The notes under the pieces: model-generated | Told to the model about the DNA's origin: nothing | Databases searched by the model: none | What the model saw: the letters and a program-made list of their open reading frames with translations, nothing else | Part shown: piece by piece, positions 1 to 21,259 of the stretch | How the letters are laid out: the number at the start of each line of letters is the position of its first letter | How positions within the stretch are numbered: the first letter of the stretch is position 1 | IMG/VR virus record: IMGVR_UViG_3300031700_000008 | Coordinates: 1 to 21,259 of that record | Origin: a virus | Direction: 5' to 3' (one strand) | Length of the DNA: 21,259 nucleotides | Program-made: the position numbers and the translations under genes

Positions 1-570
1 GACACGGCCTTCAAGGCCCGACAGGACAACGATTACTCCGTCATGATGACGATGGGCCTCGACACCACGGGTGACATCTACATTGTTGACGTGATCCGCG
101 ACCGTTTTGAGTTCCCCGAACTAAAGAGACGCATGATCCAAGCCAATAATCAGTGGCGTGGACGCGGCCTACGGGGCATTTACATCGAGGATAAGGCATC
201 TGGTCAGTCTCTCATCCAAGAATTACAGCGCGAGAGCGGCGTATCCGTAGTTCCGTACAAGGTTTCGTCGGATAAAGTCTCCCGCGTAACCTCGATACTC
301 CCACTCATAGAGGGCGGGCGCGTGTTTTTACCTGACAATGCCCCCTGGATGGACGCCTTCCACGAGGAATGTCAGTCTTTCCCTTCGGGAAAGCACGACG
401 ACATGATCGACGCCCTATCAATCGGCCTCGATGTTCTCGCTCGCACCCCTACCACGGGTGAATATTACACTCCGTCTGCTTTTTCTCTGCCCAACTCTGG
501 CGATAGCCTGTGGGACATGAAGTCCGATCTCAATAAAATGAGCGGCTCATGGCGCGGCTGGGGTGAATAA
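1..570 (+). CDS. terL: Terminase large subunit, C-terminal nuclease domain (5' truncated)
   Basis: This is the end of the packaging motor's large subunit, which cuts the concatemer and drives DNA into the prohead. The frame is already open at base 1, so the start and the ATPase domain lie outside the window; 189 codons remain. What is left is the RNase H-like nuclease. Numbering from the first codon, acidic metal-ligand candidates are D1 (in DTAFK), E63/D64 of the IEDKASG block and D133/D134/D137 of KHDDMIDA, in the order and spacing usual for TerL. The protein ends 39 bases before the portal gene, the usual terminase-portal order of head operons. The ATG at 43 is an internal methionine, not a start. 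The nuclease assignment is secure; the DNA-end type (headful, cos or terminal repeat) cannot be read from this part. Confidence 0.93.
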   Translation, partial: DTAFKARQDNDYSVMMTMGLDTTGDIYIVDVIRDRFEFPELKRRMIQANNQWRGRGLRGIYIEDKASGQSLIQELQRESGVSVVPYKVSSDKVSRVTSILPLIEGGRVFLPDNAPWMDAFHEECQSFPSGKHDDMIDALSIGLDVLARTPTTGEYYTPSAFSLPNSGDSLWDMKSDLNKMSGSWRGWGE

Positions 571-609
571 GGACGACCAAACCAATCACGAGGAGGTAAA
601 ACTCGTTTC
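571..609 (+). promoter_or_regulatory. Gap before portal: GGACGAC motif and strong Shine-Dalgarno
   Basis: The first seven bases after the terminase stop are GGACGAC (571-577), one of five such motifs in the gaps of this window. A strong AGGAGG lies at 591-596, 13 bases before the portal ATG, slightly farther than optimal. The gap shows no terminator hairpin. A promoter or processing role for the heptamer is a guess from its recurrence. Confidence 0.4.
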
Positions 610-2526
610 ATGACATTAACAACGACAAATTACCGTGCGGATTACGTTCCTGACAACGATGGTATCGTTGTTGATCTTTCCGATCACGCTGACGCCCTCA
701 TGAACTATGAGGACATATCCTCACGTCTCAGCGTCGAGCAAGAACAGAAGCTCGTAGACTACGTACGATCCGCGATGCAGATGTCATACGACCGCATCTC
801 CAAACGCTACGAGCATTGGAAGCAAGCTGACCGCGCGCATGACGTTTACGTACGTCCCGACGCCACGCAGTTCCGCGAGAAGGCGGTCATCGCTGACACT
901 CGCGCCATATCTGACACGGTTCACACCTACCTGATGGCTGCCCTTACGGGCCGCAATCCAATGTTCCAGTTGGAAGGTCTCAACAGAAAATCGCGCAAGT
1001 CATCTCAGATCATTGAACGCCTACTACACCAACAGATGCGCCGCACAGCAGGGGAGGCTCGAATTGCCCAACACCTTCTGGACAGTATTCGGTACGGATA
1101 CGCCCCCACAAAAGTTACGTGGGATGCTTCAAGCAAGACGAACAAGATCACCAACTTCGACCCGCGCCGCGTATTCCACGACCCCCGCGTCCAGTGGGGA
1201 GATTGGGAGAGGATGCAGTACATCATCTTTTCTGATTTCTCATCTTATGACGCTCTCCTCCAGACGGGCATGTACCCTAAACTCAAAGAGTACCCCGCCC
1301 TCCGAAACAAGTTTGCCGCTCCGACTGGTGGGTGGGACGGACATAAGTGGCATAAAGAAGCCGGACGAGGATTAAGTATTGACCCCGCAGAGCGCAACGC
1401 TCGCGGTGGCGGCACCTTCTTCGCATTGGGTGACAGCCGTATCATCGACGAGAGCTGGATACGTCTAGCTGGGTACGAGATTGGTGTCCCGCAAATAGAA
1501 CAGTTGTGGATGTGCATCACCGTCCTAGACGAGAACGTCATCATCCGCTGCCAACTCAACCCTTACGGCAGGCAGTTTCCTGTTGTAATCGGCGGCCTGT
1601 ACCACGACGCGCATAAGACCTACTCCCAGTCGCTTTATGACATCCTCCTCCCACTACATGATGTCGCGACATGGCTGTTGCGCAGCCGCATCGACAACGT
1701 ACAGGCCGCTTTGACCAATCTTATGTTCGTTGACCCCACTCAAGTCGCTATCGGAGACCTCATAGACCGCAATGCGCACGGTATTGTACGCACTATGCCT
1801 GGTGTTAAGCCTGGTGATGGCGTGTTTATCGCCAACGTCCCCGACGTTACGCGAGGTCATTGGAACGATATCGAGGCAATGTCGGGCCTAAAGCAGCGTT
1901 TATCCGCCGCTTCCGACGCTCAACAGGGTATGCCCACCGCAGAAGGCGGCGTACGCACAGCGACAGAGATACAGCGCCTTACGCAACTAGGCTCTCAGCG
2001 CCTTGGCGTACTCGCTCGTACGATCAGTGCCACTTCCGTACGGCCAATGGCCCGCATGATGGTAGCCAACGTGCAGGATTTCTTCGCTGCTGAAAGCTCT
2101 ATCCGCATTGGCGAGCAAGACAATGCTTCATCACTACGTGGCATGGTCAACGACGGCTACCTCGACTTCAAGCTGTCAGACATCCAAGGCGAAATCGACT
2201 ACCTCGTCGTAGACGGCACCTTACCACTTGAGCCAACCCGCAATGCTGAGACTTGGATCACCATGCTCAAGACCCTCAACGAGACGGGTCTCGCGATGGA
2301 GTACAACTCAGGCAAGATCGTCGAGGAGGCCATCCGCTCTATGGGTGTCTCAGACTTGGATCAGTTCAAAATATCCAAAGAGCAGCAGGCCGAGGGGCCA
2401 ACCAAGTCGCAAGAAATGATGATTGCGGAAAAAGCCCGTGGCGCATCCGTACAGCCGCAGCAACAGATCGAGAGTGAAGTTCAAAGGGGCAATCTCATAC
2501 CAATGCAGGAGGCGCAGCGCCGATGA
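610..2526 (+). CDS. Portal (head-tail connector) protein
   Basis: The 638-residue product has the size and position of a podovirus portal: it follows the terminase and precedes the scaffold and capsid. Portals form the twelve-fold ring at one capsid vertex through which DNA enters and leaves. The protein opens with a helical region (about residues 40-80), then a stem/wing-like section with the phrase SIRYGYAPTKVTW (about 158-170) that recurs in podoviral portals, a central mixed region, and a C-terminal polar, Gln-rich tail (about 590-638). No signal peptide or membrane segment is apparent. The start at 610 is supported by AGGAGG at 591-596. Its stop overlaps the next ATG by four bases (ATGA), implying translational coupling. 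Family assignment rests on context and general sequence character rather than a signature motif. Confidence 0.85.
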   Translation: MTLTTTNYRADYVPDNDGIVVDLSDHADALMNYEDISSRLSVEQEQKLVDYVRSAMQMSYDRISKRYEHWKQADRAHDVYVRPDATQFREKAVIADTRAISDTVHTYLMAALTGRNPMFQLEGLNRKSRKSSQIIERLLHQQMRRTAGEARIAQHLLDSIRYGYAPTKVTWDASSKTNKITNFDPRRVFHDPRVQWGDWERMQYIIFSDFSSYDALLQTGMYPKLKEYPALRNKFAAPTGGWDGHKWHKEAGRGLSIDPAERNARGGGTFFALGDSRIIDESWIRLAGYEIGVPQIEQLWMCITVLDENVIIRCQLNPYGRQFPVVIGGLYHDAHKTYSQSLYDILLPLHDVATWLLRSRIDNVQAALTNLMFVDPTQVAIGDLIDRNAHGIVRTMPGVKPGDGVFIANVPDVTRGHWNDIEAMSGLKQRLSAASDAQQGMPTAEGGVRTATEIQRLTQLGSQRLGVLARTISATSVRPMARMMVANVQDFFAAESSIRIGEQDNASSLRGMVNDGYLDFKLSDIQGEIDYLVVDGTLPLEPTRNAETWITMLKTLNETGLAMEYNSGKIVEEAIRSMGVSDLDQFKISKEQQAEGPTKSQEMMIAEKARGASVQPQQQIESEVQRGNLIPMQEAQRR

Positions 2527-2786
2527 GCAACCCCATAAATAGCAGTGTTTGGGCAACCCAGGTTGACGCAGTGATACGCGACTTTGTGAATGCTCGCATC
2601 CACGAAGAATTAAAGCCAGTACGGGACGACACCGAGGCGCTTCGCGGTGCATTGTTGCGAATAAGAGAAGCGTCCCAGTCTGACATGGGCACGCTGACCG
2701 CAAGAGTAAATGACGCTGAAGAGCTATTAAAAATGTCGTCATGGCGGGTGGCCAAGCTCCGCTCCCTAGCGACTGAAGAGGAATAA
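2523..2786 (+). CDS. Small coiled-coil protein, unknown function
   Basis: An 87-residue acidic-basic helical protein, not recognised by family. Residues about 35-75 show heptad spacing of hydrophobics (ALLRIREASQSDMGTLTARV and on), suggesting a coiled coil. The ATG overlaps the portal stop as ATGA, so it is probably made by translational re-initiation in fixed proportion to the portal. Only two bases separate it from the next gene. In podoviruses small helical proteins at this place can be virion or assembly factors, but nothing in the sequence decides that. It is judged real because it fills the space exactly between two well-supported genes in the operon's coupled style. Confidence 0.7.
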   Translation: MSNPINSSVWATQVDAVIRDFVNARIHEELKPVRDDTEALRGALLRIREASQSDMGTLTARVNDAEELLKMSSWRVAKLRSLATEEE

Positions 2787-2788
2787 GG

Positions 2789-3328
2789 ATGGCACGCACC
2801 CGCGTCCCCAGTGAACAGTTAAACTTCCGCTCCGCGAATACCGGAGTTCACCTTCTTGATACGTATCTTGAAGATGCGGAGATGGGCAACCTCACGCTTG
2901 CTCAACTTATGGGTAAGCTGTTCGATGAGACCACGGGTAACATCGACGCCTTCTCTTTTCAGTACAGCAACGAGAACGACCTCCAGACGCTAAAGCTACG
3001 CATCGGTGGCTCAGAAGCCCCGTACCTAGAGGTCGCCAGCTTCACTGATCTCTTTACCGACCTAGCCGCCTTCAAGTCTACGGCTCTTTCAGACATGGAA
3101 GTAAAGCGTGCTAACGCCCAGACCAGTGCAGAGAATGCCCTAGCGTCCGAGCTAGACGCGGAAGCAGCCAACGCTTCATCGCTTTCGGCAAAGCAAGCAT
3201 CCGAGGCTGCGCGGGACTTGTCCCAAACCTATGCCAACCAAGCGTACCAAACCACACCTACCGTGATCCAGCAGGGCATATTGTTGGCACAACTTCACGG
3301 TGAATTGTTCAACGGGAGTTCTCTCTAA
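2789..3328 (+). CDS. Short fibre-like virion protein sharing an N-terminal module with the fibre at 14544
   Basis: 179 residues. Residues about 25-90 match the N-terminus of the 522-residue fibre encoded at 14544: both begin MAR and carry YL..AE.G..TL..L...FD (here YLEDAEMGNLTLAQLMGKLF), followed by a beta-rich stretch and a similarly placed A(S/T)..DL. The C-terminal half is a long Ala/Ser/Glu-rich helix (about 95-165) of the type that forms trimeric coiled coils. It looks like a fibre anchor or shaft segment without a receptor tip. The stop overlaps the next start as TAATG. The shared module is seen directly; that it docks fibres to the tail is inference. A whisker or adaptor protein is an alternative. 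Confidence 0.72.
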   Translation: MARTRVPSEQLNFRSANTGVHLLDTYLEDAEMGNLTLAQLMGKLFDETTGNIDAFSFQYSNENDLQTLKLRIGGSEAPYLEVASFTDLFTDLAAFKSTALSDMEVKRANAQTSAENALASELDAEAANASSLSAKQASEAARDLSQTYANQAYQTTPTVIQQGILLAQLHGELFNGSSL

Positions 3329-3696
3329 TGCCAAATATTTCGGTATCAAATCAGCAGGCTCTCGCAGACGAACTTGCCCAGCGCCTTACCACCCTAACTG
3401 CATCCACGCCGAACGCCGACTTGGTTTATCTGGCGAGGATGATCGAAATCTTCAACGGCAACGCAAACCTATCTGCTGTTTCCGCTGAAGGCGACACTCA
3501 GATCACCAACATTACGAACGTGAGTTCGCAAAAGGTTACGAGCGTAACGCAAGAGGGTAACACCCAAATAACCGCCGTGCAGCAAGCATCCCTCACGGAG
3601 CAAGCGGCTCTCAATGGTCTTCAGACAAGCATCCAGTCAGCGTTGAACGCATACCAGATGTCTCCGTCGAAGGTCTTTTTTCTGTCACAAAGCTAA
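3328..3696 (+). CDS. Coiled-coil virion protein with internal repeats, probable fibre component
   Basis: 122 residues. The N-terminus (MPNISVSNQQALADEL) is followed by a helical segment and then near-repeats EGDTQITNITNV and EGNTQITAVQQA (about residues 53-95), whose polar/hydrophobic alternation suits a thin trimeric shaft. I recall this type of small protein near fibre genes of marine phages but cannot name the family with certainty. Its ATG lies inside the TAATG junction with the preceding gene, so it should be translationally coupled to it. A GAGG sequence follows its stop and serves the next gene. No enzyme motif or signal peptide is visible. Confidence 0.72.
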   Translation: MPNISVSNQQALADELAQRLTTLTASTPNADLVYLARMIEIFNGNANLSAVSAEGDTQITNITNVSSQKVTSVTQEGNTQITAVQQASLTEQAALNGLQTSIQSALNAYQMSPSKVFFLSQS

Positions 3697-3708
3697 ACGA
3701 GGAATATC

Positions 3709-5547
3709 ATGCCAAACGGATTATTAGGAAAGAAGGTTGTAAACGCCCGCGACACGGAAGTTGTATATACAGTTCCGGCGGCTCGCACGTCTACATTTAA
3801 CCTCAACGTACTAAACAACGGCGAAAGCGCTGCTACCGTTAATGTATACGTATCAGACAAGGTGTACCAAACACGCGACTTTGAGGACTACCTCACCCCT
3901 CTGAACTATAACAAGACATGGGTTGCAGCCGACACGTCCAACACACTTGATCTTGTGGGCCAGAGCACATCGAAGATGATGACTGCTATGAAGACCACTC
4001 CGGTAGAGCCTGCGGCTGCGAACACGGCTTCTTCCCCTATCGCGGGTAAAAAGATAGAGACACTGCAAACAGCGAACGGTGACGGCAACTTCTTCTTGGT
4101 CAGCTCCCCTGCCGCAGTCGGAAACCCGCTGCCATTCTACACCGCAGGCGCATTGTACGTACGTTCCGCCCCAGACGGCGGCGTATATACGTTCGACAAC
4201 TTCTTCTCTGGCGGCGCAGCAACTACTGCTTCCACAAGCTACGGTCAGACCGCTACTGACAACGTGCTTTGGGCCACCAACGAGAACGCAAACTTTGCGA
4301 TGTCTTACGTACAAGGTGTTCCCGGCGGCGCAGGCTCCGTAGTCAATTCAATCGCAGACTACCGCGTCACCGCAGCTACGTACAACACTGCCTTTACTTG
4401 GGGCTTGGGCGCGATCAGCAAGATTGCTGGCATTAAGACTTCTGAAGAACGCTTTATTATCGGCACCACCACTGGCTTTAACTATATGTCTAACGACGCA
4501 ACGCCACAAACCCAGTCTGAGTTCCAATCTAACACCATGTCACCACCGACAGGTATCTCTGGGTTTATGATTGGTGCGGCAGCGATTGAAGGTTCAACCG
4601 TCAACGAGGGCAACATCTTCATCGCCTACTCCGGCAACAAGGTTGCGTACGCTGGATACACGGCAGCAGCACCGTTCCCGGTAACGGGCTACAGTGTATT
4701 TGATTTCCCATCGGGAGTTGTGTTCACTGACGTTGTTGACATTCGGGCTGAGGGTACGAGCTTTGTTATAGTTGTAGCTGGCGGAACCAAGCACAGCACG
4801 GCAGACCTTGGCATAACATGGACGGCATCAAAGCACTACGCGGCGATGCCAGTTGGCATCACGGTTGCCTCCATCTCGGGGCAAAACAAGTTCGTCAACG
4901 ACGACCTATCAACAAACGTGACTGAGCTTACATTCGTACGCGGTCGTACGTACCGCTTGCACCAGCAGGCGGCAGCGAACAACGGCCACCCTCTTCAGTT
5001 CTCCGAAGTCTCCGGCGGGCCACACTCTAACGGCACCCCTTACTCAACAGGCATGAAATTCATGTTGGGCGACCCAACTGCGACAGCGCCTTTCACTGTA
5101 GAGACGACGGTAAACGCGGATTGGGTGTCTGGTCACGTCACGCACGACGGCAAGACACGGATCATCGAGTGGACTGTACCGGCATCTGCGCCGAATACTC
5201 TCTACACGTACTGCCCGAACCACACCAATATGGGTTACGCAGTCTCAATCGTGGACGAAGACACGGTTGCGCCACACGACGACGCCACGGCTCTCGCCAC
5301 TGTAAACATCTACAACGCCGACAACGGCGATGCGGATCGTCGCTACGACCTGACCTTCAACGGTGAGGCTTACATGCGCGAGAAACGCTTCTACGCTCTG
5401 CCTTTGCTCGACAAGTACGAAAAGTCTGAGATTGCTGCTGGTGAAATCTTGGAGCGCACAGCGATCATGGCAAGTGTTGGCGAGCAAGTAATTGTCACGA
5501 CGAGCGGAGACAGTATTGTAGTTCGCGTTCACGGCATCGAGGAGTAA
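3709..5547 (+). CDS. Tail/fibre-associated structural protein with an Asp-box and an amicyanin-like cupredoxin domain
   Basis: 612 residues, three visible parts. Residues 1-105 are a beta-rich N-terminal region typical of marine phage virion proteins. Residues about 130-390 are beta-rich; T364-W371 (TADLGITW) fits the Asp-box S/T-x-D-x-G-x-T-W of sialidase-like propellers. Residues about 395-517 resemble a cupredoxin: VTELTFVRGRTYRLHQ, then H427 in NGHPL, and C502, H505, M508 in YCPNHTNMGY. H...C-x2-H-x2-M is the type 1 copper ligand set with amicyanin spacing. The last 95 residues are again virion-like and end in a basic/acidic tail. GAGG at 3699-3702 serves the ATG. Position among fibre genes suggests an exposed virion protein. 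Copper binding is predicted from ligands only; a metal-free carbohydrate-binding use of the fold is the alternative. Confidence 0.75.
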   Translation: MPNGLLGKKVVNARDTEVVYTVPAARTSTFNLNVLNNGESAATVNVYVSDKVYQTRDFEDYLTPLNYNKTWVAADTSNTLDLVGQSTSKMMTAMKTTPVEPAAANTASSPIAGKKIETLQTANGDGNFFLVSSPAAVGNPLPFYTAGALYVRSAPDGGVYTFDNFFSGGAATTASTSYGQTATDNVLWATNENANFAMSYVQGVPGGAGSVVNSIADYRVTAATYNTAFTWGLGAISKIAGIKTSEERFIIGTTTGFNYMSNDATPQTQSEFQSNTMSPPTGISGFMIGAAAIEGSTVNEGNIFIAYSGNKVAYAGYTAAAPFPVTGYSVFDFPSGVVFTDVVDIRAEGTSFVIVVAGGTKHSTADLGITWTASKHYAAMPVGITVASISGQNKFVNDDLSTNVTELTFVRGRTYRLHQQAAANNGHPLQFSEVSGGPHSNGTPYSTGMKFMLGDPTATAPFTVETTVNADWVSGHVTHDGKTRIIEWTVPASAPNTLYTYCPNHTNMGYAVSIVDEDTVAPHDDATALATVNIYNADNGDADRRYDLTFNGEAYMREKRFYALPLLDKYEKSEIAAGEILERTAIMASVGEQVIVTTSGDSIVVRVHGIEE

Positions 5548-5553
5548 GCCCAC

Positions 5554-7695
5554 ATGGCACGTATTCGCAGAAAACTAAAAATCACGGGCGACGAATATAA
5601 CTTCGGGGGAGGGGCTTCTAGTGGCTCCTCCACTTCCGCAGGCGGGTTTGTTAAGATTGCCAAGGGCCACCCGAACCGCAACAACGCCAGCCATGACGGC
5701 TTCTTTGACAATGGGTCTACTATTACAATCGCTATGGACGCTGGCGGCGCGATATCTGAAAAAGACCAGTACATCTACTTCGACAATGCTTTTGAGACTG
5801 GCACAGGTACAGTCACTTATGAGTTTTTGAACGGAGATACGGCGCTTCCGGCTGGCGTGTCTTGGGCTACCAACACAGACGGCTCCAACACCGACACGGG
5901 CGAGGCTAGGTTTTACGGAACGCCCAGCGCAGTAGGAACAAACTCGTTCAAGGTGAAGGTAGACTACCCGTACGGCTCTGCCGCCGAGCAAGTCTCGATG
6001 ACCTACACTTTAAAGGTTCTCCCCACAGGAACGACACCAATCTGGACGGGCACACTCGCTCCGCTTATTGCTCAGAATGTCACTGACCCCCAAATAATAG
6101 TAGCGGGTCCGACTACAAACTACTCAGGCGCTACCTATACGCTTTCAAACGTCAGTGGATTTCTATCAGGCGTCAATCCAGTCATTGACAGCGAGACGGG
6201 AGCAGTTTCCGTATCTAACGTCGGCGCTGCCGTGCAAGCTGCTTCAGCCCACGCTCTTACTGTAACAGTTGACCTTGGTGAATATGGAACTGTGCCCAAG
6301 ACGTTTAGCGGAAATGTATCATACGGCGACCCTTACGGCGCACGTTATTTTGGTCCGGCAAACTATAAGCAAAATCAACAATCCAGCCTTGCGTTGTCAC
6401 TGGGCGAGGAAGACACTTACCATAACCCATCAAAGAGCTCTGGTGCCCTAAGACGTGAATGGAACGCCCCCGAAGATACATCTCCTTATTACCTAAATGA
6501 TACTTATGGTTGTATTGCCAATGGTTCCTATGTCCCAAGCCAATCCTTTTACGACCAAGGGGGTGACTACTATAAGCATGGCGTTATGGGCATCAACCCA
6601 ACCAGCACTCAGATCATGTGTTCAGCTTCAAATCACGCTTACGTTAGCGGATTTTGGGTCGTACCAGGCGGCGTCACTTCAATATGCGCTGTCGCCGCAG
6701 GCGCGGGTTCTATGGGCTGTTTCCAATGGTCCGCTGATGGCGGCGGCGGCGGTGGCCTTGCTTGGATGAATGGCATCACGGTAGTGCCAGGTGAGGTTCT
6801 TCAATGGTGCTGGGGTCTTGGAAAGTCAGTGGAAGCCAGCAACGGCTCCTATGGCGGCGGGGCTAGTTGGTTGAGACGCCACTCTGGCGGCGCGAACCAA
6901 GAACACATCCTTTTTGCGCAGGGTGGCGGCTGGACTGGTTACAGTGATGGCTCCCCTAACGGAAAAAACACTAGCTACACGGGGGGCGTAACTGTCAGCG
7001 GCCTTACGCACTGGGACAAAGGCAATGGCTACGCCGCAAACAATCAAAGAGATGGCGGCGGCTGGGGAGTACGGACTGAAGAAGGTTCTCCTGTAGACGA
7101 TGGCACGGGCACAACTTTTCACTACGGCGGTGGCGCGCCAATGTACTCAGGTGATCGGCACGGCATGGGCGCAGGCGGATACCGAGGGAACGGAACACAA
7201 ACTGGGCAGTCAACTGCTGGCTACTATGGCGGCGGCGGGGCGGGCTATGACTACTCTTCAACTCATGGCTATGGCGCTGGCGGCGGCGTAGGCTTGGACG
7301 GCCAAGGCGAAAAGGGTGGTCGTGCTAACGCTGACCCTCGCGCGAACCCGAATGCTGGCTCAGGCTACGGCGGGAGTGGCGGTAACTGGACTTCGTACGG
7401 CTTCGGCTCACCTAACTACCGCGGCGGTGGTGGCGGTGGATCAGGCGGTACGCGCGGAGCGTACGGCGAAAACCAGTTCACGGGTGGCGCAGAAAACGGC
7501 AACGGCAACGGCCACCGCGTAGGCGGCCTTCACGGCGGCGGCGGCGGCGGATCAGGCACGTCCTCTGGCGGCGGTCACGGTGCGTCGGGTGGCCTTCGTA
7601 TCATCTGGGGCACAGGCGAAGACGGAACTGCACGTTCATTCCCGTACACCTACTGCTCTGAAAAACCTTCAATGAAATATAATGGAGAACACTAA
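5554..7695 (+). CDS. Glycine-rich tail fibre / adhesin with Ig-like domains
   Basis: 713 residues. The short N-terminus (MARIRRKLKITGDEYNFGGG) is followed by an Ig-like region: about residues 60-165 resemble a putative-Ig (He_PIG) domain (ARFYGTPSAVGTNSFKVKV) and about 170-275 look like a second. Residues about 280-390 contain several aromatics and cysteines. From about 395 to 690 the chain is dominated by Gly with Ser, Tyr, Asn and His, ending with GGLRIIWG. Such glycine-rich tips resemble the polyglycine-helix adhesin known from T4-like gp38, where loops between glycine runs contact the receptor. GAGGAG at 5539-5544 supports the start. The next gene looks like a fibre assembly chaperone, which fits. 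Receptor binding is inferred; the receptor cannot be told. Confidence 0.8.
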   Translation: MARIRRKLKITGDEYNFGGGASSGSSTSAGGFVKIAKGHPNRNNASHDGFFDNGSTITIAMDAGGAISEKDQYIYFDNAFETGTGTVTYEFLNGDTALPAGVSWATNTDGSNTDTGEARFYGTPSAVGTNSFKVKVDYPYGSAAEQVSMTYTLKVLPTGTTPIWTGTLAPLIAQNVTDPQIIVAGPTTNYSGATYTLSNVSGFLSGVNPVIDSETGAVSVSNVGAAVQAASAHALTVTVDLGEYGTVPKTFSGNVSYGDPYGARYFGPANYKQNQQSSLALSLGEEDTYHNPSKSSGALRREWNAPEDTSPYYLNDTYGCIANGSYVPSQSFYDQGGDYYKHGVMGINPTSTQIMCSASNHAYVSGFWVVPGGVTSICAVAAGAGSMGCFQWSADGGGGGGLAWMNGITVVPGEVLQWCWGLGKSVEASNGSYGGGASWLRRHSGGANQEHILFAQGGGWTGYSDGSPNGKNTSYTGGVTVSGLTHWDKGNGYAANNQRDGGGWGVRTEEGSPVDDGTGTTFHYGGGAPMYSGDRHGMGAGGYRGNGTQTGQSTAGYYGGGGAGYDYSSTHGYGAGGGVGLDGQGEKGGRANADPRANPNAGSGYGGSGGNWTSYGFGSPNYRGGGGGGSGGTRGAYGENQFTGGAENGNGNGHRVGGLHGGGGGGSGTSSGGGHGASGGLRIIWGTGEDGTARSFPYTYCSEKPSMKYNGEH
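6736..7600 (+). repeat. Glycine-rich low-complexity coding region (GGC runs)
   Basis: Inside the adhesin gene, runs of GGC/GGT codons recur (for example 6739-6754, 7230-7239, 7426-7440, 7534-7551), interspersed with Tyr, Asn, Ser and His codons. The region is variable-length low-complexity DNA with several near-identical GGCGGCGGCG tracts, a natural substrate for slippage and recombination. It encodes about residues 395-683 of the adhesin. Confidence 0.75.
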
Positions 7696-7961: not shown

Positions 7962-7962
7962 T

Positions 7963-8187: not shown

Positions 8188-8209
8188 GGGGATAACACCC
8201 CTTACTTTT
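8184..8209 (+). terminator. Rho-independent terminator overlapping the stop codon
   Basis: Perfect 8-bp inverted repeat GTAAGGGG / CCCCTTAC (8184-8191, 8198-8205) with loop ATAACA, followed directly by TTTT (8206-8209). The left arm includes the TAA stop of the gene ending at 8187. It separates the fibre block from the oxygenase gene. Confidence 0.85.
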
Positions 8210-8229
8210 CAACTTTAAGGATACTCTCA

Positions 8230-9418: not shown

Positions 9419-9430
9419 GAAAGCCTCAAC

Positions 9431-13021: not shown

Positions 13022-14541
13022 TGACCAGACTAGCGTACGCACCCTTATCCGTTAAGAGCGACTTCACTTCCTACTATGGGTTTAGGGGCATTGACCGTTC
13101 GCGCGACATCACAGCACTTGAGACAGAGAAGGACCAAAACTTCTGGAAGCTGGAAAACTGTTTCGTGGACTATCGCGGTCAGTTGATACGCGATCCTGCG
13201 TTCTACCTTCACAAAGGCTCTAACCGCTTTCCGGTAAAAGCGCTCAGATTTTACAACCGCGATGGAGTTGTCTTCGCAGAAGAAGATGCTTCAAATACGC
13301 ACTTGTCTTCTGACAGGGGCCACCGCCTTGACGGTGCTTTAGCAAAAGGCGCTATTGTTTCCATGACTAACTTTAAGGGCAAGGTTCACATCTTCTCTAA
13401 AGATAGCCGGATGTATCGCTACGACGGGTTTGAGTTCTCGACATCCACTTCCTCGATCAAGCCACAGTTCGGCGTACCCATCCAACGACGACTAGCTGTT
13501 GCTGGGTTCAAGGACCGACCGACTGTTGTGGAGTTCTCGCGCGTAGACAACCCCGACATCTTTTTGAACGAAGAAGCTCCGACAGAAGAGGTCACGAGAG
13601 CTGCATTTATCGACATCTCGAACTTGATTGGTACTGCCGACCAAATCGTCGGGATGGGTACATTCGAGGCTAACCGCCTTGCTGTGTTCACCAAAGACCA
13701 AACATTAGTTTACATCATCGACCCTGATTTTGAGCAGTGGCAGCTAGATAGTCGTGCCAACCTTCGGATTGGTTGCGTATCGCACAACACGATTGCCAAC
13801 TCTGGTTCTGACTTATTGTTCTGCTCACGCCGAGGCATCCACTCGATCATGCGATCAGAGCAAAATGGTGTTACGATTTCTGAAGCATCTTTGTCTGACG
13901 AAGTAGAGCCTCTTTATCAAGAGCTCGTACGCACAACACCTGACCCCGAAACTATATCTGCGGTATTTGACCCAGATACGCTTACGTACCACGTCTTCTT
14001 TCCCCGTCCAGGCGGTTCGAACACTGTCCGTCTGAGTATGAATTTTCGTGCAGGCTATGAGAGTGTAAACTTCCAGCTTGGCGACACACTGTTACCACGT
14101 TGCGGAACCTTTTTAGGTGGTCGTTTAATGTTCGGCACTTCCGATGGAGTTTACGAGGCAACTAAACGTACGTTCATTCAAGACACAGGTCGGTCTGATT
14201 TAAGGCGATCTCCGATGATAGCCGAGACGCCTGTGCTATGGCTAGGCGACTTCCTTGGTACGAAGAGGTCTCACACTTTCATTGTGCAAGCTACGGGTAC
14301 GGGTCGCTTCTTCATTGACTTCACAGATGAAGTTGGCGGTGACATGGCCTCGATAGAAGTCAACCTCGACAGGATTGAGGGTGACGAGAACTGGGGGGAC
14401 GCGCCTCTAAACCATGACTACTCCTTCCCATTTAACCACATTTTCCGAGGCGTTCGAATGAGATTTCGCACCGATGAAAAAGACACGAAGAGCGAAGTGA
14501 CGGTGATTAGCTTTGCATTCTTGAACCATAAGGACAAATAA
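13021..14541 (+). CDS. Tail nozzle / hub protein, beta-propeller type
   Basis: 506 residues, beta-rich throughout. Recurring strand pairs such as KALRFYNRDGVVFAEED, GKVHIFSKDSRMYRYDGFEF, NRLAVFTKDQTLVYIIDPD, DLLFCSRRGIHSIM and GGRLMFGTSDGVYEATK have the look of propeller blades, as in podoviral nozzle proteins (P22 gp10, T7 gp12). The stretch from about residue 215 to 285 (VGMGTFEANRLAVF.. to ..GCVSHNTIANSGSDLLFCSRRG) is the most characteristic. The nozzle binds under the adaptor and carries the fibres. It is coupled to the adaptor by TAATG and followed by a fibre gene, consistent with that role. The family is inferred; no single signature is decisive. Confidence 0.75.
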   Translation: MTRLAYAPLSVKSDFTSYYGFRGIDRSRDITALETEKDQNFWKLENCFVDYRGQLIRDPAFYLHKGSNRFPVKALRFYNRDGVVFAEEDASNTHLSSDRGHRLDGALAKGAIVSMTNFKGKVHIFSKDSRMYRYDGFEFSTSTSSIKPQFGVPIQRRLAVAGFKDRPTVVEFSRVDNPDIFLNEEAPTEEVTRAAFIDISNLIGTADQIVGMGTFEANRLAVFTKDQTLVYIIDPDFEQWQLDSRANLRIGCVSHNTIANSGSDLLFCSRRGIHSIMRSEQNGVTISEASLSDEVEPLYQELVRTTPDPETISAVFDPDTLTYHVFFPRPGGSNTVRLSMNFRAGYESVNFQLGDTLLPRCGTFLGGRLMFGTSDGVYEATKRTFIQDTGRSDLRRSPMIAETPVLWLGDFLGTKRSHTFIVQATGTGRFFIDFTDEVGGDMASIEVNLDRIEGDENWGDAPLNHDYSFPFNHIFRGVRMRFRTDEKDTKSEVTVISFAFLNHKDK

Positions 14542-14543
14542 GA

Positions 14544-16112
14544 ATGGCTCGTTTAAAAGTATTATACCCTGGCAACCACACCAGCTCATCTAACATTGGT
14601 GCCGACATTGAGAACATTGTTCGTTACCTAAACTCTGCGGAGGTTGGTGACTTCACACTATCCGAGCTTTTGAGTGTTATGTTCGACAACAACGGAACCT
14701 TGGTTGCACCAATTGATTTGCGTAACGATGCTGTCAACGGCCTTCAGTACCGTGCAGGCGTCTATACCGAGCTTGAAGATGGATGGAAAACTATCGCGAC
14801 TTCTGCTGATTTGCGCGGCACATCTGGATCAGACGTTGCCACAATCGGCGCTCCACTTTTCTCAGCGCGTACAGACTTAGTTATAAATAGCGCTGACGCA
14901 AACGGAGTTATAGCCAATCCTACTGGTGCTACCACTTTCAATTTCTTGCACGAAGATACTGACGCTATTGTTGTGTATTTGAACGGTGGCTTGCAGGCGG
15001 CTGACAGCTACTCATCTAGCGCAGCCGCGAACACGGTAACGCTTTCTAATGCTACGGACGCTGATGATCTTGTAACGATCTATAAAGTGCAGTCTTCAAA
15101 CGACAGTGGGTTCGTTCGTGAGGATGTAGTCTCCGGTGCGTCTCAAGCGGTGTTCCCTTTTGTCCACACGGAGGATCAGAAAGTTCTAGTATCACGAAAC
15201 GGCGTTTTGCAGCGTGAGGGTGGTACGAATGACTACACAACTCAGCCAGCAAATTCGACGATAACTTTTACGTCAGCGATGGTCTCAGGCGATTTAATTA
15301 CGCTCATGATTGTTGAGGACACTTCACAGGTTCGTGTCAGTGGTCTTATGACTGAGGACAAGTTTACTGATGCAAACGGCTTTGTCCCTTACTCTAAGCT
15401 GGCTATTTCTGACCAAGAAATTCCACAATCTAAAGTGGCTGGGATTACCAGCCTTTTGACTAACCGTGGTCGCGTTTACGTTTCTGCTTCTGAGCCTGTG
15501 ACTGCTAACGCGGGTGACTTCTGGGTGGATACCGCGTCCTCACCGAACGTGCTTAAATTCTACAACGGTACGGGCTGGCTGCTTACTAGCCCCGACACGG
15601 GCATCCCTGCGTTCACAACCACGAACGCCCTTCAGTTCTTGCGGGTGAACTCGACAGGTGGTGGCCTTGAGTTTTCTAGCATCGACTTTACTGCTGTTGT
15701 TCCCAAAACGTACATCGGTGCTGCTGATGGGGTTGCTGGCCTAGATGCTACAGGTCGCCTGCCTATCGCGCAGTTACCTGATACATTCGCCACTCGCAGC
15801 TTCTTTTACCAGAAAACAGGGTCAGTTCCAGATGGGTCATATGTTATTACGCGAGCCTTCAAGCAAAACGTACGCATCGACGCCGTAGCAGCCAAGACTG
15901 TATCTGGCACAGCCAACATCCAGCTAAAGATTAATGGCATCAACGCTGGCGATGTTATCCCGGTAAACTCAACTCTGACAGAGCAAAACCTGTCAGCTTC
16001 CATTGCCATCGACGCCACGACCACCTCTCGCGAGGTGGGTTTCGAGGTCACGTCAGCTAATAATGTAACTGACATCGAAGTCACCTTGGCAGCCGTCATC
16101 ACCAATGTCTGA
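14544..16112 (+). CDS. Tail fibre protein with duplicated beta modules
   Basis: 522 residues. Residues about 25-95 are the anchor-like module shared with the 179-residue protein at 2789 (YLNSAEVGDFTLSELLSVMF here). Two tandem copies of a fibre module follow, about 130-185 (FNFLHEDTDAIVVYLNGGLQ...LVTIYKV) and 205-262 (FPFVHTEDQKVLVSRNGVLQ...LITLMIV). Then come VSASEPVTANAGDFWVDTAS (about 313-332) and the phage-fibre phrase GVAGLDATGRLPIAQLPDTF (about 395-415). The last 90 residues form a beta-rich tip. The chain suits a trimeric fibre bound to the nozzle encoded just upstream. AAGGA at 14529-14533 serves as the ribosome site. Receptor specificity cannot be predicted. Confidence 0.8.
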   Translation: MARLKVLYPGNHTSSSNIGADIENIVRYLNSAEVGDFTLSELLSVMFDNNGTLVAPIDLRNDAVNGLQYRAGVYTELEDGWKTIATSADLRGTSGSDVATIGAPLFSARTDLVINSADANGVIANPTGATTFNFLHEDTDAIVVYLNGGLQAADSYSSSAAANTVTLSNATDADDLVTIYKVQSSNDSGFVREDVVSGASQAVFPFVHTEDQKVLVSRNGVLQREGGTNDYTTQPANSTITFTSAMVSGDLITLMIVEDTSQVRVSGLMTEDKFTDANGFVPYSKLAISDQEIPQSKVAGITSLLTNRGRVYVSASEPVTANAGDFWVDTASSPNVLKFYNGTGWLLTSPDTGIPAFTTTNALQFLRVNSTGGGLEFSSIDFTAVVPKTYIGAADGVAGLDATGRLPIAQLPDTFATRSFFYQKTGSVPDGSYVITRAFKQNVRIDAVAAKTVSGTANIQLKINGINAGDVIPVNSTLTEQNLSASIAIDATTTSREVGFEVTSANNVTDIEVTLAAVITNV

Positions 16113-17244
16113 CCTTAATCTCAGCCCACAAGAACAGAACATTGTCGATTACCACAACGGTTCGATGAGTTCTGGTCGTGTGGGCAGGGATGACCAAGGC
16201 AGACCTATGACAGTCTACTCTACAGGCATCAGGGTTGAGCGGGGTCCACACAAAGGTAAGTTTGTGTCGGTGCCAGGATGGGTGCCAAGCGTAAACGCAG
16301 ACAGACCTTTGACCGAAGGCGAGGCTTTCGAACACTGGGAAGCTGAAATCAATGAGGGCAAGTGGCCCTTCTATGAAAGTGGCCCAGCGCTCAACTCGCG
16401 ATCACAGGAGATACACACCATTATGGACAACGATCTAATCCACATTAACGAAGAAGAGAGCAAGATACTGGCTCCTAGCCTAACCCCCTCGCCGCAAAGA
16501 GAGATACCCACCATCAAGGGTGAGGAGGGCCACTTCAAGGCGTACGATCATCGCCAGTTGATGACCCACCTACCAAACAAGATGGGACCGGGCGCGGCGG
16601 CGGCTGGCCCTATGGGGACTTCGGGTATGCACTATGTTGACCGAGACGGCGAGTTGACGACCGGAATGCGCGGAGAAAAGACACCCGCTCACATCTCCAA
16701 AAACCAAGATACGCAGGAAAGTTTTCTTGCTTCTGAGATGTCTCGCAACTCTATGGAGCAATTACGCGCTTCGTTGCCTAGAAATGTCCAAGACAACTTG
16801 ACGGGCGACATGCTCTTGGAGCTGGCAGACGACGGCAAGTACAGCTTGCTGGTGGGTGATAAGGACAGTGGTTACGTAGAACTTTCGTACGGACCAGATG
16901 ATTACCAGGACGCTCTTTCTGATGTGAAGCGTGCGTACAACTACTCAGCCCAGACGGGTGACGCAAATATGGACGCTGGCTTCTTGGGCCGAGCCTCCTC
17001 TGCGTACAGGTACAACGGCTACACAGAAGCGTTGCTTCGCAAAACCGGAGAGGGTCGCCTTTCTGAGATAAAGTCCAACCCGTTTGCTTCTGAGGAAGAC
17101 GTGCTTTCCGCTCTGGAAGAGATCGACGCCATGAATGATGAGGTCAGTCGGCAGAAAGGCCATGAGAAATCGAAGCAACTTTCGTTCTCAAAGCGCGTTC
17201 TGGACAGGGAGGCTAAAATGAGAGCCGCCAAGATGATGCAGTGA
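16105..17244 (+). CDS. Virion-associated protein, possibly internal/ejection protein
   Basis: 379 residues. Residues about 6-112 form a module (LSPQEQNIVDYH, then YSTGIRVERGPHKGKFVSVP and LTEGEAFEHWEAEINEGKWP) that I recall from large internal virion or tail-associated proteins of other podoviruses, often with the same bulk-plus-periphery pattern; its role is unknown. An Ala/Gly-rich hinge (GPGAAAAGPMGTSGM, near residue 160) precedes a helical C-terminal half ending in a strongly basic helix (VLDREAKMRAAKMMQ). It begins eight bases inside the fibre gene. No catalytic triad, signal or membrane segment is seen. Confidence 0.65.
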   Translation: MSDLNLSPQEQNIVDYHNGSMSSGRVGRDDQGRPMTVYSTGIRVERGPHKGKFVSVPGWVPSVNADRPLTEGEAFEHWEAEINEGKWPFYESGPALNSRSQEIHTIMDNDLIHINEEESKILAPSLTPSPQREIPTIKGEEGHFKAYDHRQLMTHLPNKMGPGAAAAGPMGTSGMHYVDRDGELTTGMRGEKTPAHISKNQDTQESFLASEMSRNSMEQLRASLPRNVQDNLTGDMLLELADDGKYSLLVGDKDSGYVELSYGPDDYQDALSDVKRAYNYSAQTGDANMDAGFLGRASSAYRYNGYTEALLRKTGEGRLSEIKSNPFASEEDVLSALEEIDAMNDEVSRQKGHEKSKQLSFSKRVLDREAKMRAAKMMQ

Positions 17245-17299
17245 GGACGACAATAATGTCGCTTGAGGAATATAGTTCTAAAAAATAAAGGAGCCTGTG
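17245..17299 (+). promoter_or_regulatory. Gap with GGACGAC motif and a possible 10-codon mini-ORF
   Basis: GGACGAC follows the stop directly (17245-17251). GAGGA with an ATG at 17256 opens a ten-codon frame (MSLEEYSSKK) ending at 17288; AAAGGAG (17287-17293) then serves the gene at 17300. The mini-ORF could be a leader peptide or chance. No hairpin is apparent. Confidence 0.3.
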
Positions 17300-17545
17300 A
17301 TGGCATTTAGTACAGAAATTTTTGGCCCGAACACCGGAACGTCTATTGCGGCACGTCGTGAAGCTGGATCAACAGAGCAGACAGCAGAAATGGGACGTGG
17401 TGGCGACAGCATGATGGTTCGCTCTTCACCGTTCACGATCAAGCTATTGCAAGACATCGGTGGCGCAGGCTCGTTTAACCCTGAGACGGGTATGCTTGAG
17501 TTCTACGACGTAGATGAAGCTGTAAAGAAAGCCTACGGTCAGTAA
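17300..17545 (+). CDS. Small protein of unknown function
   Basis: 81 residues beginning MAFSTEIFGPNTGTSIAARR, with a polar Gly/Met-rich middle and an acidic end (YDVDEAVKKAYGQ). Not recognised. The ATG at 17300 is preferred over the GTG three bases earlier because AAAGGAG (17287-17293) is six bases before it. It is joined to the acetyltransferase by TAATG. A small virion component is plausible from its place. Confidence 0.68.
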   Translation: MAFSTEIFGPNTGTSIAARREAGSTEQTAEMGRGGDSMMVRSSPFTIKLLQDIGGAGSFNPETGMLEFYDVDEAVKKAYGQ

Positions 17546-17997
17546 TGATCCAGTATAGTGCCATTACTAAAGACGACGGCCCTGCTCTATGTGAGCTGGG
17601 CGCGTTGATGCACGAAGAAAGCTCGTACTCTGAGCTAGAGTTTAACCCCTCTAGGGTGATCGAGACCTTCAATGCCTATTTGGATAATGACACTAGAGCC
17701 TGCTTTATCGCCAGTGAAGATGGCAAGCCAGTCGGCTTGTACGCGGGATACATGAACAAATACTACTTTAGCGACGAGTACGTTGCGAACGACATAGCGT
17801 GGTTCGTCGTTAAGGAAAAACGCGGCACTCGCGTTGGTCTGCGACTTCTCGATATGTTCGAAGATTGGGCTAAAGAGAGAGGCGCGTCTGAAGTCAGGAT
17901 AGGCTACAGCACCGACATAAACCCAAAGGCGTTTAATAGCCTGATGCAGAAGCGAGGCTACAATCTAGTCGGCGCAAACTACCGCTTGGAGAGATAG
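17545..17997 (+). CDS. GNAT-family N-acetyltransferase-like protein
   Basis: 150 residues with the GNAT fold order: N-terminal strand (MIQYSAITKDDGPALCEL), helices, then strand CFIASEDGKPVGLYAGYMNK, strand DIAWFVVKEKRG and the acetyl-CoA loop/helix RGTRVGLRLLDMFEDWAKER (motif A, R93 to G98; the first G of the Q/R-x-x-G-x-G/A consensus is R96), followed by SEVRIGYS and a C-terminal GYNLVGANYRLER. GNAT-like proteins of this size sit at the T7 gene 13 position in some marine podoviruses, beside the ejection proteins, and may be structural or modify a virion/host protein. Whether it still acetylates is unknown. It starts in TAATG with the preceding gene. Confidence 0.82.
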   Translation: MIQYSAITKDDGPALCELGALMHEESSYSELEFNPSRVIETFNAYLDNDTRACFIASEDGKPVGLYAGYMNKYYFSDEYVANDIAWFVVKEKRGTRVGLRLLDMFEDWAKERGASEVRIGYSTDINPKAFNSLMQKRGYNLVGANYRLER

Positions 17998-17999
17998 CA

Positions 18000-19226
18000 A
18001 TGGCAACTTTTAACAGCTACATTTTTGGCTCTTTTTTAGACAGACGCTTGTTCGCAAAGGACGGCGGTGGCGACCCCGGTGATGACGACAACAACTCAAG
18101 CTCGGCCTCTAACGCAATGACGGTACAGGCTGGCGATACCCTTAGTCAGATTGCGCAGGCTAATAACACGACTGTTGACGCTATTGCTGCGGCCAACAAT
18201 ATTTCTGACGTTAATCAAATCCAAGCTGGCCAGAACTTGAGTATGCCTACGAGCAACACCAACTTCAACACAGTCAGCGATACAAACACCAGCGATAGCG
18301 CGGGTAGCAACACCACCCGTATGGACATTGCCAACAGCATTACCAAAAATGACGGCACGACCTACAAGGACGGCATTCTCTACAACGATAGTGACAACAG
18401 CCAAGTTACCTATACAACTCCATACCAGAACCTTGCGGATGCTTTTACGCCAAATGACGGCACGACCTACAACCAAGGACAGCTTGTTGACGGTAATGAC
18501 AATACATTACGTCAAAACGTAGCTAACAGCATTACCGGACCAGACGGAATGGTGTACCAAGGCGGCAATCTATACAACGAAGGAGACGGTTCACTTGTTA
18601 CTGATAACACTTCGTACCAAGACCTTACGAACCTCGTTACCCCGTTCGACGGCTCTATGTACGAAGACGGCCAACTGACACAAGGCACTGGCGCGTCAAT
18701 CGGTACTGCATACATTCCCCCACCCCCGACAGATAATGACGATGATACGCCAGCCACAACTACAGCCACTACTACTGACACCACTACTGAAGTTGATACT
18801 GATACTACTGAAACTGAAACCGCTGAAACTGATACGACTGGCACTGATACGGTCGATTACACTGACTTGGTAGAAGTCCTTGAGAGCTTTACGCCTGGCG
18901 GTCAGAGCGTGACTTCTCTTCCCGATGAGTATCTCACACAGGAAGACCTTGAGAAATATCTAGCGAACCTTGATCTAGGCTCAAACGCCTATGACCCAGC
19001 AGCATTTCTTAATGCGTACGGGTTTGCCTTAGACGGAACGCAGAACAACCTGATTGCCAACACATCACCGTCTAGCGGTGTGTTCACACGCCGAGCTGTT
19101 AAGGATCGTGAAACTGGAGAAATACGGTACGTCAATGTGCCTGTTGGAAGTGGTGCTATCGACGGAAATAACGGAGCAAGCCAGTTCCGCCTCGACCGTC
19201 GCAACGGCTTTGCCTCTATGGTTTAG
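18000..19226 (+). CDS. LysM-domain virion protein with repeats and Thr/Asp-rich linker
   Basis: 408 residues. Residues 40-83 form a LysM domain (AGDTLSQIAQANNTTVDAIA, IQAGQNLSMP), a peptidoglycan/chitin-binding fold. Residues about 111-232 hold four imperfect copies of a short unit that begins ANSIT, ADAFT, ANSIT and TNLVT and carries xDGxxYxxGxLx; spacing is 35, 29 and 35 residues. A PPPP tract and a Thr/Asp/Glu-only linker (about 240-285) precede a C-terminal domain. It sits between the GNAT and gp14-like genes, suggesting a cell-wall-binding ejection or tail-tip component. No lysozyme, NlpC or transglycosylase catalytic motif is visible, so wall binding rather than cutting is inferred. Confidence 0.75.
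   Translation: MATFNSYIFGSFLDRRLFAKDGGGDPGDDDNNSSSASNAMTVQAGDTLSQIAQANNTTVDAIAAANNISDVNQIQAGQNLSMPTSNTNFNTVSDTNTSDSAGSNTTRMDIANSITKNDGTTYKDGILYNDSDNSQVTYTTPYQNLADAFTPNDGTTYNQGQLVDGNDNTLRQNVANSITGPDGMVYQGGNLYNEGDGSLVTDNTSYQDLTNLVTPFDGSMYEDGQLTQGTGASIGTAYIPPPPTDNDDDTPATTTATTTDTTTEVDTDTTETETAETDTTGTDTVDYTDLVEVLESFTPGGQSVTSLPDEYLTQEDLEKYLANLDLGSNAYDPAAFLNAYGFALDGTQNNLIANTSPSSGVFTRRAVKDRETGEIRYVNVPVGSGAIDGNNGASQFRLDRRNGFASMV
18330..18690 (+). repeat. Four imperfect repeats in the LysM gene, with an exact 21-base direct repeat
   Basis: The four protein repeats at residues about 111-232 are also visible in the DNA: 18347-18367 and 18452-18472 are identical over 21 bases (encoding NDGTTY), 105 bases apart. 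The in-frame spacing of 35 codons suggests a recent internal duplication. Confidence 0.7.
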
Positions 19227-19237
19227 GAGACTACAAG

Positions 19238-20176
19238 ATGTTCGATCTATTAATGGCTGGCACCTCTCTTTATAATGCGGTCAAATCAAACAACAGAGCT
19301 GACGGCGCAAACGATCAGCAGGCGGCATTAACTGCCGCTGAAGTTGCACGTAACGAAAAAATAATGGAGCTTTACGCGCAAGGCTCTTCCGAAATGCAGA
19401 ATGCGATGAGAGGTGCTTTAGATAGTGCCGGAGACTTCGCGAACATTACGCCAGAAAACTTTGTTGCTCTCAGGAACTACTTCACCTCAGAGCGCAAGCA
19501 GGAAGACTTGCAGAACGAGAACGATGTCTACGCCGCAGACAATCGTGCCCGTGAGTTCGGTGCGAGTACCTTCGACATGGCCCCTAACATTGATCGGGTT
19601 GCGCAAAAGTTTATCGACGCTCGCATGGCGAACGCAGGCCGTGCCGTAGATGAAACTATGTCGCGTGGCCAAGCAGACTTGTACGCAAGGGGTATGGATA
19701 ACAGTACGCTTGAGGTACAGCTCCGCAAGAGCGCTGCCGACCTAAAGGCGCAGGCTTACAACCAAGCCTTGCTAGACGGCACGAACGACGCACTTACGTA
19801 CGTTAAAGGTGTGCAAGGTGTCAGCAGCAACGAACAGATCATGGATATGTCTGAGCGCAAATTTGGCCAAGATTTGATTAAGAATTATACGAACATGGAT
19901 ACTGACACTGCGCTTTTGGATTACACTAACTCGAACACCGTTATGAACAATCAGAGCGCCATGTACACTGACTTCGCCTCAACTATGGGCGACCTAGCGG
20001 CAGCTCCGTCAAAGTTTGCGGCTGATGGCCAGACCTCCGCAGGATTTGGCAACGCACTGCAAAGCGCTCAATCCATTTCCAAGCGTATGAATGACAACGC
20101 AAACGATGCGGGTGGCACTTTCGGAACATGGTACGACAGGCTCACAGGCTACAACGACCGCACCCCAGTAAGTTAA
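19238..20176 (+). CDS. Internal virion protein, T7 gp14-like
   Basis: 312 residues, helical, Ala/Asn/Gln-rich. The N-terminal MFDLLMAGTSLYNAVKSNNR and the following charged helix resemble the amphipathic starts of podoviral internal core proteins (gp14 class), which leave the virion first and help form the channel across the envelope. The middle has helices with regular hydrophobics; the C-terminus is glycine-rich and polar. TAGGAGA across the previous stop acts as ribosome site. It is placed before another long helical gene, as in the gp14-gp15-gp16 order. The assignment is from context and composition; confidence is moderate. Confidence 0.68.
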   Translation: MFDLLMAGTSLYNAVKSNNRADGANDQQAALTAAEVARNEKIMELYAQGSSEMQNAMRGALDSAGDFANITPENFVALRNYFTSERKQEDLQNENDVYAADNRAREFGASTFDMAPNIDRVAQKFIDARMANAGRAVDETMSRGQADLYARGMDNSTLEVQLRKSAADLKAQAYNQALLDGTNDALTYVKGVQGVSSNEQIMDMSERKFGQDLIKNYTNMDTDTALLDYTNSNTVMNNQSAMYTDFASTMGDLAAAPSKFAADGQTSAGFGNALQSAQSISKRMNDNANDAGGTFGTWYDRLTGYNDRTPVS

Positions 20177-20181
20177 GGAGG
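20175..20181 (+). promoter_or_regulatory. Shine-Dalgarno that decides a GTG start
   Basis: AAGGAGG overlaps the previous stop and ends six bases before the GTG at 20188. It is the best ribosome site in this region and the reason the rare start codon is accepted. Confidence 0.75.
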
Positions 20182-20187
20182 CACTAA

Positions 20188-21259
20188 GTGCTTAGATTAG
20201 GTAAATTTACTGAGGCTATCGAGCGCGGTGATGAACGTAGAAGTTCGCTTCGCAAAGAGAACGCTGGTTTGTACGCTGACTTCGTACGAGATAACCCTGG
20301 TGCGTCCATTGATGAGCGTACGGATTACGCTCAAACCCTCATCAACGACACGGGTGTTGGCAGCAGGGGTCTTCCGACCAGAGCTGCTATGCAGAAGTCT
20401 GTTGATACGTACAAGAAAGCGGAAGCAACAAAGGCCGCTGCTGCTGCAAGGGCGGCGGAAAGCCGCAAACAGGCTGCTATCCGTCAAAGATTTACGGACG
20501 TAGAAAGTATTATGGCCAACGCTGCCGCTATGGGGCAAGATAAGGCTTACGTAGAGGGACTTCTGACAGAGTTCGGGTATGAACTTGATGGCATAGATGC
20601 CATCATGACGGGTGTTAAGGACAAGCAATTTCAGGAATGGCAGAAAGATAACGAAGCTGCGATCCAGAGCTACTTGGAGAGCCCGACAAAGGCAGGCTAC
20701 GATCTTCTCCTTTCAAGAGGTGGAGATTTTAAAGAGAACATAACAACTCTTTTTAAAAGCCAGTACGAAGCGTCCGAAGAAACCCAAAGCAAAGAATTGA
20801 AGATCGCACTGGAAGTATTGGCATCCGCGACGGACCAAGCTGATTATGATAGACAGCTCCGTGATCTTAGAAACAAATATCCTGATGCTGTGTTTAATAA
20901 AGTAAAATCAGAAGTCAGTCTTACCGAAGGGCTCTTCGAAGGGAACATGAAGACGAAACTTGCGGAAGAAGTCGTGACGGCACGAGCTAAGTTAGAAGAA
21001 CTTTCCAACGAGGACAGCACTCCACAGGATTATGAAAGAAAGCGCGACCAGTTTTTGCTTACTCTTTCTGAGGATGTTCGGGCTGAAGTATCCAAAGGTG
21101 GCGATGGTTCGATAGTAAACGGATATGGTGCTAACTTCGACCGCCAAATGGGTCTTCGGACTGACGCTTCAGTTCAAAAATTGCGCGGCGAGTTAAGCGA
21201 TCTTTCCCGAAAAAATCTTGCCGTAGACGTTTACGAAGAAGAGCGAAAAGAACTTTTGG
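20188..21259 (+). CDS. Large helical internal virion protein, N-terminal part (3' truncated)
   Basis: From GTG at 20188 the frame is open to the last base (357 complete codons), so the gene continues outside the window. It begins (V/M)LRLGKFTEAIERGDERRSS, carries an Ala/Lys/Glu helix (KAEATKAAAAARAAESRKQA, about residues 76-95) and long charged helices thereafter, with no catalytic motif or membrane segment. Position after the gp14-like gene, helical character and open-ended length fit a gp15-like ejection protein. An ATG-based search would miss it, since the next in-frame ATG lies about 67 codons downstream. AAGGAGG is ideally placed for the GTG. A smaller antisense frame at 20197-20628 is its shadow. 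Confidence 0.8.
   Translation, partial: MLRLGKFTEAIERGDERRSSLRKENAGLYADFVRDNPGASIDERTDYAQTLINDTGVGSRGLPTRAAMQKSVDTYKKAEATKAAAAARAAESRKQAAIRQRFTDVESIMANAAAMGQDKAYVEGLLTEFGYELDGIDAIMTGVKDKQFQEWQKDNEAAIQSYLESPTKAGYDLLLSRGGDFKENITTLFKSQYEASEETQSKELKIALEVLASATDQADYDRQLRDLRNKYPDAVFNKVKSEVSLTEGLFEGNMKTKLAEEVVTARAKLEELSNEDSTPQDYERKRDQFLLTLSEDVRAEVSKGGDGSIVNGYGANFDRQMGLRTDASVQKLRGELSDLSRKNLAVDVYEEERKELL

Follow-up and report, generated by a model that had tools for sequence, protein, structure and literature searches.

The avoidance of restriction sites is an old and well-known phage strategy, with T7 as the classic case, and double-stranded DNA phages may end up with no copy at all of a palindromic type II site (Rusinov et al. 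2018, PMC6286503). A deficit of GANTC is equally known from pelagiphages, where it affects about half of the 33 studied (Seong et al. 2022, PMC9516812); the trait tracks phage phylogeny among them, and their hosts methylate GANTC, no restriction system having been identified there. Some sinorhizobial and Paracoccus phages encode GANTC methylases instead (PMC5537653), probably in answer to the same host pressure. The fourth relevant system is the recently described marine phage family founded on the isolate CRP-810, characterized by shared core genes and a tRNA-directed integrase (Wu et al. 2024, PMC11288001); the passages of that publication dealing with the family do not take up GANTC, and nowhere in the paper is restriction mentioned by name. 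The subject here is the total absence of GANTC from a 21,259 bp stretch of viral DNA (IMG/VR record IMGVR_UViG_3300031700_000008, positions 1 to 21,259; “the window” hereafter), whose gene content marks it as the structural module from a phage of the CRP-810 type, a family with integrases.

Compared with the pelagiphages, which infect SAR11 and show the GANTC contrast mostly within the Autographivirinae, the lineage of the window belongs to another family, has an integrase-linked phage attachment site (attP) pointing to Rhodobacteraceae, was probably purged in its ancestor and bears traces of the purge in its amino acids. It differs from the site avoidance of PMC6286503 in that no cognate endonuclease is known in its hosts and that several asymmetric sites are missing too, and from the methylase-encoding phages in that it removes the site they methylate. 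CRP-810 itself keeps 105 GANTC sites and uses a tRNA-Thr, whereas GANTC is gone from the window lineage, in whose relatives the attP corresponds to tRNA-Ser(GCT). New, then, is a purge in a second phage family, one that probably dates from its ancestor, has left an amino-acid-level trace and concerns an integrase-bearing lineage; new as well are the convergence seen in cultured Rhodobacterales phages and the finding that the known cognate nuclease is missing from the sampled host group.

By machine count, GAATC, GACTC, GAGTC and GATTC each occur zero times in the window, just as the initial annotation had claimed; its figure of about 83 sites expected from uniform base use was too high, as a maximal-order Markov model of the window predicts 42.4 and 2000 synonymous-codon shuffles of the 23 window genes (which ignore codon-pair bias) give 44.9 ± 5.1, with a range of 30-62; its conclusion stands all the same. 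Of 1,504 words compared in the window, all palindromic or degenerate, GANTC has the strongest deficit. Its one-step neighbours (964) and GATC (72) are plentiful, and composition is therefore not the cause of the absence, which the annotation had likewise held.

The purge is clade-wide. Relatives were retrieved through short peptides of the window, hence the sample leans towards near kin; their coding sets were called by a greedy open reading frame (ORF) picker, and the assignment of metagenome contigs to bins is uncertain. Six genomes of 42-57 kb each (G001-G005 and G009) contain no GANTC at all vs. 87.6-115.8 expected in their coding DNA (106-116 in G001-G003 and G005), and 57 of the 80 contigs recovered by portal, 565 kb in total with about 1,222 sites expected, are equally devoid of it. 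As zero GANTC is spread over an 81-row marine clade in the portal tree, it is probably the ancestral state of that clade, judging from this tree. A nested pair (L073 and L082) has regained about half of the expected sites, a few clades have 1-9 of them, G007 and G008 have 20 and 10, respectively, and assemblies of Endozoicomonas and Phycisphaerae contain relatives with counts near expectation.

An artefact of library digestion or assembly filtering, or else a biased phage mutation, would have nothing beyond the extremity of the count to recommend it, and is very improbable indeed. GANTC-bearing relatives come from the same samples as the purged ones (metagenome 3300020401 yields L077 with zero sites and L082 with 17; 3300020446 yields L047 with zero and L033 with six), which led to the rejection of a library artefact; cultured isolates are purged likewise, the one-step neighbours are abundant, there is an imprint at the amino-acid level, and sampled Rhodobacteraceae DNA keeps 76 GANTC vs. 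96 expected.

The genome-wide loss of GANTC reflects selection that is strong, still under way and directed at the DNA itself, with some cost to the amino-acid sequence. Serine following Asp or Glu in the coding region of the window is encoded by AGY in all 30 cases and never by TCN, compared to 358 TCN and 119 AGY codons elsewhere (75% TCN); across G001-G005, TCN is used at none of 361 such sites, and in CRP-810 at half of them. The D-S and E-S dipeptides themselves are scarce in six purged genomes, with 0.49 of the expected number compared to 0.78 in CRP-810 (p = 2e-5), and thus the pressure on GANTC has reached protein sequences. As for its continuation, 1,697 mismatches separate the window from its near relative G001, which would by chance have created about 26 new GANTC sites; neither genome has any, and selection is therefore continuing.

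Attachment-site and methylase comparisons make CcrM-bearing alphaproteobacteria of a Rhodobacteraceae-like kind the most likely hosts. In five purged relatives (the integrase being outside the window), a sequence copied from the 5' half of tRNA-Ser(GCT) lies downstream of the integrase and is the predicted attP; exact matches to its 35-base core, counted by hand from a table for the two groups covered, were found in about 93 of 150 Rhodobacteraceae and 0 of 143 Gammaproteobacteria genomes. CcrM, recognised by its RAMA domain, is present in 142 of 150 Rhodobacteraceae genomes, and RAMA exceeds the cut-off in 5 of 369 Gammaproteobacteria. The long-term selection and alphaproteobacterial host proposed by the initial annotation are thus borne out by the clade-wide purge, the Rhodobacteraceae tRNA-Ser attP, the Roseobacter host of CRP-810 and the convergent Rhodobacterales phages, and both the selection and the host link are solid. 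The att sites, incidentally, differ among members: tRNA-Ser(GCT) in the five, an apparent tRNA-Arg piece in G007, and in CRP-810 a tRNA-Thr beside the integrase (L163-L191).

Cultured phages of Rhodobacterales hosts show the same loss, with 0 GANTC vs. 63 expected in vB_PmaS-R3, 1 vs. 84 in RcTitan and 1 vs. 165 in RDJLΦ1. Homology to G001 is not detectable for R3 and RDJLΦ1, and almost none is for RcTitan. Because the three have genes in common to varying extent, their purge is, as far as gene content tells, at least one independent origin but perhaps fewer than three. Depletion is mild in other alphaproteobacterial phages (observed-to-expected ratio (O/E) 0.30-0.64), and avoidance is not seen in T7 (1.41), lambda (0.95) or a Vibrio phage (1.06). 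GANTC as a host clue, which the annotation had advanced, is accordingly good but not rigid, as phages of the same host group span 0 to 1.3 times expectation; its depletion remains a usable, not strict, indicator for environmental phages.

What, then, selects against the site? The reading favoured here, to which a probability of roughly 0.6 is given, is that unmethylated GANTC is restricted in CcrM-protected hosts by a host nuclease, and that the purge sits within an avoidance of many type II sites. Incoming phage DNA with unmethylated GANTC would be cut by a host endonuclease; since GANTC in the host is already protected by CcrM, such a nuclease would need no methylase partner of its own, and two solutions would be available to phages, namely, removal of the site or a GANTC methylase of their own, as in some sinorhizobial and Paracoccus phages. 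That these phages methylate GANTC instead is one reason for placing restriction first, the other being that many classical restriction sites have been purged equally totally in the same genomes. Within such a scheme, GANTC removal would be nested in a broader palindrome avoidance, fitting pressure from many type II systems.

Several observations weigh against restriction as the cause. CRP-810, a sister phage with a Roseobacter host, shows no more than mild depletion (its 105 sites vs. about 171 expected), two N4-like roseophages (L236 and L238) have GANTC above expectation (O/E 1.3), which suggests another form of protection in them, and phages with a GANTC or CcrM-like methylase of their own (phiLM21 and R6L) are nonetheless depleted (0.36-0.40). 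Complete purging is, furthermore, reportedly rarer in temperate phages (PMC6286503), and the CRP-810-type family carries integrases. Most directly, no nuclease is at hand in the host group. Two Gammaproteobacteria (L208 and L210) have a CcrM-like methylase adjoining a nuclease of the HpyAIV family (NF045832), apparently a complete GANTC restriction-modification pair, HpyAIV being a GANTC-cutting enzyme; this family, the only one covered by the search (R.HinfI and nucleases of other kinds lie outside it), was found in 0 of 397 Rhodobacteraceae and 0 of 385 Alphaproteobacteria genomes, with the positive control working. An HpyAIV-type endonuclease was consequently dropped as the agent in the sampled host group, although absence from a sample of species does not exclude a nuclease in the true host, and the GANTC-cutting restriction system named in the initial annotation is not shown. 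Among plasmid-borne CcrM homologues with a nuclease neighbour, the matches listed were mostly YhdJ-type methylases, which swamped the search.

The breadth of the avoidance, which the annotation had missed in reporting GANTC alone, raises the possibility that GANTC is just one more type II site without any special link to CcrM. Absent from the window are 37 of 64 six-base palindromes vs. 3.6 expected in coding DNA (the EcoRI, HindIII, PstI, PvuII, XbaI, XhoI and KpnI sites included), from G001 32 (0.3 expected), and from each relative 25-40 (0.2-2.9 expected). CCGG (25 vs. 61 expected) and CCNGG (20 vs. 52) are reduced in the window, whose own clade retains part of its CCGG, mostly in non-palindromic contexts, and in several sister clades CCGG is wholly absent (L017-L022, L024, L026, L027, G002-G005 and G009; about 56-100 expected per genome in coding DNA); the loss of CCGG is a second, independently changing purge. 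CRP-810 (L001/L002) bears a different restriction footprint inside the one phage family, being depleted of GCWGC (1 vs. 144), CCWGG (0 vs. 96) and GGWCC (0 vs. 67) and keeping GANTC. Various members also lack the asymmetric sites GCGGAC, GAATGC, ACCTGC, GAAGAC and CCTNAGC. General avoidance as the whole story is nevertheless judged unlikely: GANTC, the strongest item of this wider avoidance, is avoided more than any other word in the window and is the one common to all purged clades, and T7 and RDJLΦ1 show nearly opposite patterns, the former with strong palindrome avoidance (O/E 0.43) and no avoidance of GANTC, the latter with weak palindrome avoidance and all but one of its expected GANTC sites gone. 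CRP-810-type genomes thus look shaped by many restriction systems, with GANTC as the constant element of the purged clades. As a side observation, G006 (L178-L180) is depleted of five-base asymmetric words (ACCGT 0 vs. 71, CCTGA 1 vs. 59 and CACTG 1 vs. 53) as well as of CCWGG (0 vs. 36); avoidance of asymmetric sites is reportedly rare.

Since RDJLΦ1 has lost GANTC and avoids palindromes in general only a little, the site can be targeted in its own right, which could also be explained by regulatory toxicity: CcrM, near universal in the host family, would methylate its GANTC site in phage DNA, GcrA-sigma70 or other readers would bind (GcrA binding requires GANTC methylation, PMC3667746), and the sites would be removed to escape ectopic transcription or cell-cycle coupling. 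The explanation is doubtful, as the purge is total within coding sequence, beyond promoter surroundings, many sites without a CcrM link are purged likewise in the same genomes, and CRP-810 integrates into the host genome, according to the account of it in PMC11288001, yet retains its GANTC sites.

The cause might also be sought in the phages themselves. A motif search for genuine [DNS]PP[YFW] adenine-methylase ORFs found none in the clade, by which a phage-encoded methylase was rejected as the cause. A phage nuclease cutting GANTC, methylated or not, in the DNA of hosts or rivals, to which a phage without the site would be immune, has a candidate in a conserved ORF of 133 amino acids (aa) with a PD-(D/E)XK-like D-D...Q-x-K pattern, which most low-GANTC relatives, but not CRP-810, carry next to the endolysin gene. 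This ORF is missing, however, from G005 (zero GANTC) and present in G007 and G008, and was rejected as the cause since its distribution does not match the loss; moreover, Pfam, PHROGs and PDB yielded no match to it. With the purged R3 and RDJLΦ1 having no detectable gene in common with G001, and hence no gene common to the purged phages of both groups, a phage weapon of this kind is decidedly improbable.

A wider form of the restriction reading is put forward more tentatively, as a possibility short of even odds: CcrM may supply a shared mark of self for a defence against unmethylated GANTC that would be widespread but so far unrecognised, and in which a lone nuclease could spread without a methylase, and to which unrelated phage families would respond by deleting the site or encoding a CcrM-like methylase. 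If the purge does reflect restriction, an orphan regulatory methylase would double as an immune self-mark across Alphaproteobacteria, the matching nuclease still having to be found, and unmethylated GANTC may be one reason for the poor entry of cloned DNA into these bacteria. As purged isolates on culturable hosts exist (RcTitan, RDJLΦ1 and vB_PmaS-R3), the question is directly testable.

The features of the window, and the one candidate ORF from a relative, are collected in Table 1.

Table 1. Features referred to in the text; coordinates are those of the window unless another sequence is named.
Feature	Coordinates	Strand	Remarks
C-terminal part of terminase large subunit (TerL)	43..570	+	Gene start upstream of window; whole in G001 at 47822-49486
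Portal protein, 638 aa	610..2526	+	Used for the tree; 69% aa identity to the portal of Roseobacter phage CRP-810
2OG-Fe(II) oxygenase gene	8230-8865		phrog_81; amid structural genes
Major capsid protein (MCP), 387 aa	10941..12104	+	69% identity to CRP-810 MCP
Homologue of CRP-810 gene annotated stabilization protein	13021..14541	+	
Homologue of CRP-810 gene annotated tail fiber	14544..16112	+	
GNAT acetyltransferase	17545-17997		phrog_1249
Coding region used for Ser-codon count after Asp/Glu	610..20176	+	
GANTC-free stretch, both strands (GAATC, GACTC, GAGTC, GATTC)	1..21259	.	GANTC is its own reverse complement
133-aa PD-(D/E)XK-like ORF	L164:15191-15592 and homologues		Adjoins endolysin gene

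Besides the terminase end, portal and capsid, the window also contains tail genes. Of the six core genes of the family tree (portal, TerL, MCP, PD-(D/E)XK nuclease, AAA ATPase and primase-polymerase), three lie in the window itself (TerL in part, portal and MCP) and all six are common to CRP-810 and G001, a 53 kb genome with 91% nucleotide identity to the window over the aligned part; by its core genes, the window lineage is a member of the CRP-810-type family. The integrase and tRNA attachment site that go with membership are likewise found in G001, as an integrase and a predicted tRNA-Ser attP, both outside the window. Further gene content of G001 beyond the window includes a LuxR-type regulator, CobS/CobT-like genes, the primase-polymerase, a Holliday junction resolvase and an endolysin.

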